Positions 4,939-32,000 of a stretch of DNA of 32,120 bases are shown here, piece after piece. Within the stretch, counting starts at the first letter, position 1. Every line of letters starts with the position of its first letter. The stretch comes from a virus: IMG/VR virus record IMGVR_UViG_3300030399_000059, positions 1-32,120 of that record; one strand, 5' to 3'. The notes below the pieces were generated by a model. That model ran no database searches and was not told where the DNA came from. It saw only the letters and a program-made list of their open reading frames with translations. The translations under genes and the position numbers were made by a program.

Positions 4939-5608
4939 AAACCAGGATTTATTTTCATGGGTGTACCTTGACGAACCGATAACAGCGCCCTATCAGCTAC
5001 AGGTAGCCTTTAACAGCGATTTTCGGAACGAGATAAGACGCGACATCGAAAGCCGTCCCGAAGTCCGTATAGACCCGGAAAAATATGCTGAATACCAATT
5101 AAGCATTGAAGTTGGTAAACAGTTTTTCTATACAGCCTTTATCCGGGTGATGCCCTATAAAACCCGTATAGCGTTTTTGGATTGGCAACTTGAGCAATGT
5201 GACCAAAAAACAACTTTTTTATACAGGGTTGAAAGTTTATCACAAGTTGACTACTGGTACAGTTTCGGCGAACACTCTTTTTACAATCCAGCCGTAGAAG
5301 AAATAATTGGCGATTGGTGCGTGGCTAAACATTTGGGCAAAGAACCAAAACAACGCCCTGTTATGGAAGTAATAAAAGGCGACATGGCTATGCCTGCTCC
5401 GGAAATAATTAAACCAAAGCCCAATAAAAAACAACTTATTGCGCTGGTGAAACTGATAACCAATAAAATTCCTATTTCGGCTTGTGAAGAATTTGAAACT
5501 ACCGGGCTTATGCGTTATGAGGGCCCTAACCAATACGCATTTAACACTTTCGCCCTTGAAGAAAAAACAGAAGAAGAATTAACCGCCCTTTATGAAAAAT
5601 ATAAATAA
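4916..5608 (+). CDS. Hypothetical cassette protein, 230 residues
   Basis: The largest gene of the plus-strand cassette. The N-terminal part (about 1-150) is rich in aromatic residues and looks like a compact alpha/beta domain. A Lys/Pro linker (IIKPKPNKK, about 162-170) leads to a short helical C-terminal domain ending in a Glu-rich helix. I recognise no family. Its start overlaps the previous gene by 23 bases and its last base is the first base of the next start codon, so it is translated as part of the operon. Confidence 0.75.
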   Translation: MNTKQIFKNQDLFSWVYLDEPITAPYQLQVAFNSDFRNEIRRDIESRPEVRIDPEKYAEYQLSIEVGKQFFYTAFIRVMPYKTRIAFLDWQLEQCDQKTTFLYRVESLSQVDYWYSFGEHSFYNPAVEEIIGDWCVAKHLGKEPKQRPVMEVIKGDMAMPAPEIIKPKPNKKQLIALVKLITNKIPISACEEFETTGLMRYEGPNQYAFNTFALEEKTEEELTALYEKYK

Positions 5609-30011: not shown

Positions 30012-30027
30012 AGGTAACTATATACAT
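30012..30027 (+). promoter_or_regulatory. AGGTA-type operator, copy B
   Basis: AGGTAACTATATACAT: left arm AGGTA, 6-base centre, right arm TACAT (one change from TACCT). It shares AGGTAACTATATA with the two copies at 30052 and 30958. Confidence 0.55.
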
Positions 30028-30051: not shown

Positions 30052-30067
30052 AGGTAACTATATATCT
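30052..30067 (+). promoter_or_regulatory. AGGTA-type operator, copy A
   Basis: AGGTAACTATATATCT, followed by ATTGGGACAA. The whole 27-base stretch 30053-30079 matches copy C (30958 region, opposite strand) at 25 of 27 positions. It lies about 60 bases before the tRNA promoter. Confidence 0.6.
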
Positions 30068-30112
30068 ATTGGGACAAAGATAAAAATTACAATCAGCTAA
30101 AAAAATTAGTAC

Positions 30113-30120
30113 TACTTTTG
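30113..30120 (+). promoter_or_regulatory. -7 box of the tRNA gene
   Basis: TACTTTTG matches TAnnTTTG; transcription would begin about 10 bases before the mature tRNA 5' end at 30137. No clear -33 box. Confidence 0.45.
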
Positions 30121-30136
30121 TAGAAATAAAATAAAT

Positions 30137-30265
30137 GGCGGGGTATATCAGATGGTTAGATAATTTGAATAGAGAAAGTTTATATTAAAGACAGTAGACG
30201 TATTGTCATATAGATTTACAAAGCGTATATTCAAAAGGTCAGTGGTTCGAATCCACTCCCCGGTA
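30137..30265 (+). tRNA. tRNA with a 55-nt insertion in the anticodon loop
   Basis: Acceptor GGCGGGG (30137-30143) pairs five bases with CCCCGGT (30258-30264); the outer two pairs are a G-T wobble and a G-G mismatch. TA (8-9), D stem TATC/GATA with a GG loop, base 26 A, and anticodon stem TTTGA/TCAAA (30164-30168, 30231-30235). Variable loop AGGTC, T arm AGTGG-TTCGAAT-CCACT. The anticodon loop is 62 nt (30169-30230) where 7 is normal. The insert folds into its own hairpin, GTTTATAT with ATATAGAT and GACA with TGTC (30178-30215). No CCA is encoded. Spliced readings give anticodon TAT (Ile) or AGA (Ser), so the identity is open. It may also be a decayed gene. Confidence 0.6.
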
Positions 30266-30516
30266 CAAGTAAAACACTAAAGAAGCATCCGAACCCCAAT
30301 GACCGAAATTAGTACGGTTGCAAACGGAAAAAAGTAGCGAGGGGCTCAGGTGGATTTCAAAGTACCCATCGTTTCATTTACAAAAGTCATAACCGTAATT
30401 ATTCTGTCTATAATACGTTCAAATTCCTTTTTTGAGTATTTAATTACAGTAGTTGAGTTTCTATACTCAATTAATACGATAACCGAATCAGCACTTTTAT
30501 TTTCAAAAAAATCAAT
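30266..30516. other. Gap after the tRNA; one open frame without a start
   Basis: No gene on the plus strand. On the minus strand a frame of about 66 codons (30545 to a stop at 30346) reads protein-like (IDFFENKSADSVIVLIEYR onward) but has no ATG, GTG or TTG at a useful place, so it may be a broken gene. A stem TTGAGT/ACTCAA occurs near 30456-30473. Confidence 0.4.
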
Positions 30517-30904: not shown

Positions 30905-30957
30905 TATTTAAAGAAGAGGATAGTTATTTAGAAGCAAATTAATTACCTTGTCCCAAT

Positions 30958-30973
30958 AGGTATATAGTTACCT
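30958..30973 (-). promoter_or_regulatory. AGGTA-N6-TACCT operator, copy C
   Basis: AGGTATATAGTTACCT: 5-bp arms pair perfectly about a 6-base centre. On the minus strand it continues as ATTGGGACAAGG like copy A. It lies 10 bases upstream of the -33 box of the Cro/CI-type gene. Confidence 0.65.
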
Positions 30974-31032: not shown

Positions 31033-31257
31033 ATGGCATTACAGAAAAAAGAGTTACTCACAGCATTGAACGATAAGATGTTTTTTGAAATGGGAGAAAG
31101 GCAAAAGAAATTGGGGTTAAGACATTTTGCCAGCGAAGTAGGTATCAGCACCTCCACACTTTCAAGGGTCGTAAACGGAGGCGATGTTGAACTTAACACC
31201 CTTGAGTTAATTTGTAGTTGGCTCAAAAAACCAATTACTGATTTCTTAAAAGCTTGA
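31033..31257 (+). CDS. Cro/CI-type helix-turn-helix regulator
   Basis: 74 residues. The core GLRHFASEVGISTSTLSRVVNG (about 34-55) is a standard HTH_3: helix, A..vGIStsTLSR..nG turn and recognition helix, followed by the usual LELICSWLKKP helix. No C-terminal sensor or cleavage domain, so it is Cro-sized rather than CI-sized. Operator copy C in its own promoter region and copies A and B near the tRNA suggest it binds the AGGTA-N6-TACCT dyad. It probably governs early genes or its own level. Confidence 0.85.
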   Translation: MALQKKELLTALNDKMFFEMGERQKKLGLRHFASEVGISTSTLSRVVNGGDVELNTLELICSWLKKPITDFLKA

Positions 31258-31700: not shown

Positions 31701-32000
31701 ATGGACAAAAACAAATTCTACATTATCAGAACCCATTCCGCCGGTGTGTGGTTTGGAAACATCCAAAAACTGGACGGAACAATCGCTATCGTAACAAACG
31801 CGAGGCGTTTATGGTATTGGGCAGGCGCCGCGTCATTGAGCCAGTTGGCGGTTGACGGAACGAAAAACCCATCCGACTGCAAATTCACCGTGACGATCAC
31901 CGACGAAGACGGTGTTTATCTACCACAGGTGATAGAGGTATTGCCATGCACAGACGAGGCTGTTACAAATATTAAATCAGTGAAAGTATGGAAAATGTAA
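31701..32000 (+). CDS. DUF6948-type phage protein
   Basis: 99 residues. FYIIRTHSAGVWFGNI, then VTNARRLWYWAGAASLSQLAVDGT and CKFTVTI, and a closing VIEVLPCTDEAVTNI and VKVWKM match what I remember of DUF6948, a small family common in Bacteroidetes phages. The biochemical role is not known. Its 3' end overlaps the following repeat gene by 13 bases, an arrangement in which the two are probably co-translated. Confidence 0.8.
   Translation: MDKNKFYIIRTHSAGVWFGNIQKLDGTIAIVTNARRLWYWAGAASLSQLAVDGTKNPSDCKFTVTITDEDGVYLPQVIEVLPCTDEAVTNIKSVKVWKM

Follow-up and report, generated by a model that had tools for sequence, protein, structure and literature searches.

The window, i.e. the whole stretch of 32,120 bases of a virus record analysed here, contains at positions 30137-30265 of its plus strand a predicted gene for a tRNA-bodied RNA. 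The parts of this gene and the features around it are collected in Table 1.

Table 1 Features of the predicted tRNA-bodied RNA gene and of its surroundings, in window coordinates
Feature	Positions	Strand	Basis
Operator-like repeat, copy 1 (AGGTAACTATATA..)	30012..30027	+	
37-nt inverted repeat, left arm, upstream of the RNA	30052..30088	+	
Promoter-like element TACTTTTG	30113..30120	+	Sequence; inferred
Acceptor stem, 5' strand GGCGGGG	30137..30143	+	Read from sequence, drawn by ARAGORN
D arm TATC / AGATGGTTA / GATA	30146..30162	+	Sequence, ARAGORN
Anticodon stem, 5' strand TTTGA, with ATA extending it to 8 bp	30164..30171	+	ARAGORN, folding
55-nt insert as placed by ARAGORN	30171..30225	+	ARAGORN
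Insert hairpin: 10 bp, 4-nt bulge, 7 bp, loop GACG	30176..30217	+	Folding
Anticodon stem, 3' strand TATTCAAA, 8 bp	30228..30235	+	Folding
Variable loop AGGTC	30236..30240	+	Sequence
T arm AGTGG / TTCGAAT / CCACT	30241..30257	+	Sequence, arm detector
Acceptor stem, 3' strand CCCCGGT, and discriminator A (30265); CCA not encoded	30258..30265	+	Sequence
37-nt inverted repeat, right arm, with a leftward 97-aa ORF on one side and the regulator gene on the other	30937..30973	-	
Cro/C1-type HTH regulator (PF13443)	31033..31257	+	

The original prediction described the D arm, anticodon stem, AGGTC variable loop and T arm as being in register, and both the sequence and the ARAGORN drawing bear this out. 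The D stem pairs 30146-30149 with 30159-30162 (4 bp) around the loop AGATGGTTA, and ARAGORN draws an anticodon stem of 5 bp (30164-30168 / 30231-30235). The acceptor stem (30137-30143 / 30258-30264) is paired at six of seven positions and does contain the two imperfect pairs noted earlier, which are a G1.U72 wobble and a G2xG71 mismatch. Of the features expected of a decoding tRNA, the three arms (acceptor, D and T) and their conserved loop letters are present (acceptor 6/7); an anticodon loop of 7 nt on a stem of 5 bp is obtained only once 55 nt are removed. The presence of an insert in the anticodon loop is confirmed. The loop was also described as 62 nt long and holding its own hairpin; the hairpin is recovered but an open loop of 62 nt is not, because in the minimum-energy fold the anticodon stem extends to 8 bp (30164-30171 / 30228-30235), leaving the bases that flank the insert paired.

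Run without introns, ARAGORN finds no tRNA anywhere in the window. With introns allowed and at default score, it makes a single call in the whole window, at 30137-30266 with a 55-nt insert, and none in any of 60 dinucleotide shuffles. The body also passes as a tRNA with the insert taken out: on the sequence minus 55 nt, default-score ARAGORN reports a tRNA-Ile(tat) of 75 bases. The Rfam tRNA model did not reach its threshold on the intact sequence, where it scored 13.5 bits and matched the T arm only, and tmRNA models (ARAGORN, Rfam) did not match the RNA. An arm detector, which requires acceptor, D and T arms and accepts any interior, gives the window RNA a score of 36, reached by 1 of 400 shuffles. 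The core of the RNA folds at -14.6 kcal/mol (z -3.35, with 1/300 shuffles equally good) and the 58-nt insert region has a folding z of -4.1, which none of 200 shuffles equalled.

The promoter-like element ends 17 nt 5' of the RNA gene. The -7 element of Bacteroidota has the consensus TAnnTTTG, to which we take TACTTTTG to be a match; no clear -33 element was seen near it, and a sigma-70 and terminator scan gave matches no more frequent than chance. The AGGTAACTATATA-like repeat is present in three copies, at 30012, at 30052 and, inverted, ending at 30973, and the two arms of the 37-nt inverted repeat are 84% complementary. Through these repeats, the RNA and the regulator gene may be under putative common control, of which the Cro/C1-type protein is, by its position, a possible agent. 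Further downstream, a DUF6948 gene (31701-32000, +) stands next to the window end, where it is directly followed by GGCTCCGG-type repeats. Its product is 84-85% identical to proteins of two related records (G003 and G008) and, as this is far above the 54-57% identity of the terminases, recent exchange of the gene is likely.

Related phages were collected through the window terminase, which retrieved seven viral loci at 53-60% identity, and an alignment search with the same protein added three further records at 54, 33 and 26%. The arm detector was applied, with a cut-off of 35, to nine records, i.e. the window, five of the first seven loci and all three further records; the short G002 and G005 were covered by blastn or RF00005 only. 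Because the permitted D-loop range was widened after G007 had been read by eye, the count over these nine records is not blind. Seven hits scored at least 35. Besides two ordinary tRNAs and the window RNA, they comprise four RNAs whose interiors are enlarged to 136 nt (G001), 110 nt (G004), 50 nt (G006) and 107 nt (G007), each of the four having 7/7 acceptor pairs counting G-U. The top score in reversed or complemented sequence was 31, versus 36-37. In G003, G008, G009 and G010, four of the nine records, the detector found no enlarged tRNA-headed RNA. Heads and interiors differ among the relatives, the interiors being unrelated even between kin. In G004, folding without constraints gives a minimum-energy structure made up of a tRNA head and an inner domain. 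The RNA is upstream of the terminase gene and divergent from it in the window (18.75 kb away), G004 (18.76 kb), G001 (23.2 kb) and G007 (23.3 kb), G006 being an exception with 33.8 kb and the same strand. The gene neighbourhood of the RNA is not conserved among the related records, with which the window shares mainly the structural block. Default ARAGORN misses all three of the relatives' RNAs submitted to it (L175, L178 and L179). G007 also carries, at 50453 (+, T arm), a shortened tRNA-like sequence (GGTGGAATTGGTAGACAC...GGTTCGATCCCC) with scant space for an anticodon arm.

The window RNA stands alone in its sequence, though not in its arrangement: a pattern modelled exactly on the window RNA matches 0 viral contigs, and blastn of the locus against phage records gave no match. 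The neighbouring 300-aa protein led to no relatives, and blast of the RNA alone gave short partial matches only, the annotated ones being mostly ordinary tRNAs. Among annotated phages, the nearest terminases are 26-28% identical and include those of Flavobacterium and Maribacter phages (Cellulophaga ~24-25%). Taken together with the TAnnTTTG-like element before the RNA, these terminases make Bacteroidota the likely host group. No tRNA-headed RNA with an enlarged interior was found in a 50-kb stretch of each of three distant isolates, Flavobacterium phage elemoF, Cellulophaga phage phi19:3 and Tenacibaculum phage Gundel_1. An isolated phage, Maribacter phage Panino (PP540027; L270), has an unannotated candidate tRNA-headed RNA at 4941-5031 (+) with 7/7 acceptor pairs, a core of 41 nt and a hairpin interior; elsewhere in the same genome (27513-27899), the annotations of a tRNA-Asp, a tmRNA and a tRNA-Thr overlap.

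A second group of RNAs came from a tight pattern for a Leu-like head, to which a loose pattern, written for tRNAs whose interiors are long, had led. Among the loose-pattern matches listed, many are intact tRNAs standing beside chance matches; 24 of the 118 examined have 7/7 acceptor pairs (2 more, at a locus end, were skipped) and at least one (L102) is an artefact. The tight pattern matches 58 viral stretches, with 45 distinct sequences among the loci examined. Although the pattern fixes only two acceptor letters, 43 of these 45 have 7/7 acceptor pairs; 37 start with AGTCAGG and 41 carry A73. Their interiors measure 48-76 nt, and a conventional 5-of-5 anticodon arm is present in none of the 45. 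With a mean z of -0.69, the 39 distinct interiors are little better folded than shuffles, so that in this set it is the head, not the interior, that looks maintained. ARAGORN finds 1 to 26 ordinary tRNAs in 10 of 13 such loci, and L095 additionally carries GOLLD and a tmRNA; 9 of the 173 ARAGORN calls in these loci start with AGTCAGG. Some of the Leu-headed RNAs pass the Rfam tRNA threshold, and blast of one of them against phages returned short matches only. In another viral contig (IMGVR_UViG_3300017658_000249; L107:3730-3868), the long anticodon stem of a tRNA body continues into another tRNA body, which is circularly permuted and whose acceptor stem is closed, i.e. a two-headed tRNA-like RNA on one common stem; folding supports the common 9-bp stem and both T arms.

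Based on the sequence, we predict, with a probability of about 0.6, that 30137-30265 encodes a tRNA-headed RNA, about 130 nt long, that does not decode. Reading of codons would be impossible for it in its present form, because a long hairpin on an 8-bp stem replaces the anticodon arm. The original prediction had offered a small intron, an RNA that mimics tRNA and a decayed gene as possibilities; the mimic is the best supported of the three and the other two fit less well, since unrelated interiors of 50-136 nt in four of the eight related records suit neither one shared intron nor random decay. In such an RNA, the acceptor, D and T arms would fold into a tRNA elbow, and the long hairpin would stack on the 8-bp anticodon stem, thereby taking the place of the anticodon arm. 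Transcription would probably start from the promoter-like element directly upstream; as the head resembles tRNA, host RNase P and tRNase Z could trim the transcript and CCA could be added, and the product may accumulate as a stable RNA. The G.G mismatch and the terminal G.U pair of the acceptor stem are a hint of decay or of poor processing.

What would such an RNA do? Tentatively, its head may be a decoy, with which translation can dispense, for host factors whose targets are the ends or elbows of tRNAs. Such factors could be nucleases, modifying enzymes or the toxins of defence systems. The hairpin would remove the anticodon and might stiffen the molecule. Defences that recognise the acceptor stem, the tail or the T arm are described in the available parts of PMC11559606 and PMC12851939; in the former, FaRel2 recognises the acceptor stem and modifies minihelices. 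By analogy, a head lacking an anticodon would suit factors that read the acceptor or T arm. A different division of labour within the same structural reading appears slightly less probable still: the hairpin would do the work, for instance by binding a protein or acting as antisense, and the head would see to it that the RNA is processed and stable. The well-folded hairpin of the window RNA (z -3.35) and the interior of G004 (z -2.44) are what such a natural scaffold would look like, and engineered RNAs of this build have been produced in E. coli, as stated in the available part of PMC3753655. Against it, the interiors of kin are unrelated and several fold no better than shuffles: given G001 (z +0.77), G006 (z -0.72) and the mean of the Leu-headed set, a structured payload is not general.

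We regard it as improbable that the gene is that of a real tRNA from which a small anticodon-loop intron or insertion is cut out to give tRNA-Ile(UAU) or a similar product, even though the sequence minus 55 nt is called as a tRNA at default score. Archaeal tRNA introns are the natural comparison, as they too interrupt the anticodon loop of a body that is normal in other respects, and a similar pattern scan recovers them. A control pattern, TAGCTCAGNNGGTTAGAGCN{45,75}GGTTCGAATCC, matched 16 viral and 25 cellular stretches, with at least 6 acceptor pairs in 10 and 17 of them, respectively; 11 of these 17 are archaeal, an origin that was checked by name for three and for others follows the record title. 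Among RNAs with an intact 5-bp anticodon stem, C/U32-U33-anticodon-purine37 is kept by 11/11 archaeal inserts and missing in seven of nine viral or bacterial ones, the two that keep it being L088 and L110. The window RNA, read by hand, has U33 and G37, which fit this rule, but also A32, which breaks it, and the edges of its loop are paired in the 8-bp stem. Excision at the canonical 37/38 site would moreover leave the anticodon AGA (Ser) in a body with a short variable loop. A search for the bulge-helix-bulge shape does not discriminate, with one match (shuffle mean 1.06) and matches in 3/11 true archaeal introns. Families of tRNA splicing endonuclease, RtcB and RNA_ligase are absent from all nine phage records searched, although the host could supply such enzymes; the RNA matches no Rfam intron family, and heads as well as interiors differ in the relatives. 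The intron-like loops of L088 and L110 do imply that intron-bearing viral tRNAs may exist. In these two viral tRNAs (L088:14498, repeated as an identical RNA at L131:3279, and L110:911), the inserts are archaeal-like in position and the anticodon-loop letters normal, and the inserts are possibly genuine small introns. Four bacterial contigs (L135, L143, L147 and L154, from Chryseobacterium aurantiacum, a Clostridiaceae MAG, a Cyclobacteriaceae MAG and a Planctomycetales MAG) likewise hold tRNA bodies with long interiors and 7/7 acceptor pairs.

Decay of a tRNA gene after a chance insertion is just as improbable. The two imperfect acceptor pairs would be expected of it, as would the lack of close relatives (blastn of the locus, exact pattern) and of any other tRNA in the window (default ARAGORN). 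Yet no pair is missing from the D, T and anticodon stems, the insert folds far better than shuffles, a promoter-like element ends 17 nt upstream, and complete heads around enlarged interiors are kept in four related phages. A group I intron, for which the insert had been judged too short, is not supported, given its 55-nt size and the absence of an Rfam match or catalytic core.

Phage tRNAs are commonly viewed as codon helpers or as replacements that resist nucleases. If the prediction of a non-decoding, tRNA-headed RNA is true, anticodon-less RNAs would separate codon reading from the roles of a tRNA in processing, CCA addition and recognition by acceptor-reading toxins, and would allow tRNA mimicry in the conflict between phage and host to be tested directly. 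Genes of this kind are easily overlooked: default ARAGORN skips the window RNA as well as the three RNAs from relatives, and the Rfam tRNA model calls only some of the others. A search of the open-licence literature found no description of such a class of tRNA-headed RNAs.

Several known systems resemble the window RNA in part. tmRNA also joins a tRNA-like end to a non-tRNA interior, but the window RNA matches no tmRNA model, has a 4-bp D stem and is far shorter. The anticodon-nuclease-resistant phage tRNAs of PMC10264068 are likewise phage tRNA bodies with altered anticodon loops; they are still functional and differ by point changes, and the available part of that text contains neither "insertion" nor "intron". 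The engineered tRNA scaffold, as described in the available part of PMC3753655, retains acceptor, D and T arms around another hairpin in place of the anticodon loop, and is man-made whereas the window RNA is natural. The nearest known case is a small phage RNA, RNAC of T4 (species 1 RNA, AF158101 70908-71046), reported to be expressed late and confirmed by Northern blot (PMC9697503, available part), whose role is given as unknown in the available parts of PMC3014915 and PMC9697503. In its 3' part, the detector recognises a tRNA head with a CGGAACG/CGTTTCG acceptor, a perfect T arm and an enlarged interior, at a score of 32, which is below the cut-off of 35 used elsewhere. Unlike the window RNA, T4 RNAC has a weak D arm, a different body and an extra 5' part, and it sits in a tRNA cluster; what the two share is a tRNA head without a decoding anticodon arm, a likeness of structure only. 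It is a rather doubtful, wider proposal that phages widely encode non-decoding RNAs in which a maintained tRNA head surrounds a fast-changing interior and absorbs tRNA-targeting immunity, with the window RNA, its relatives, the Leu-headed set, L107 and T4 RNAC as members. If true, the long-unexplained T4 RNAC would join a wider group.
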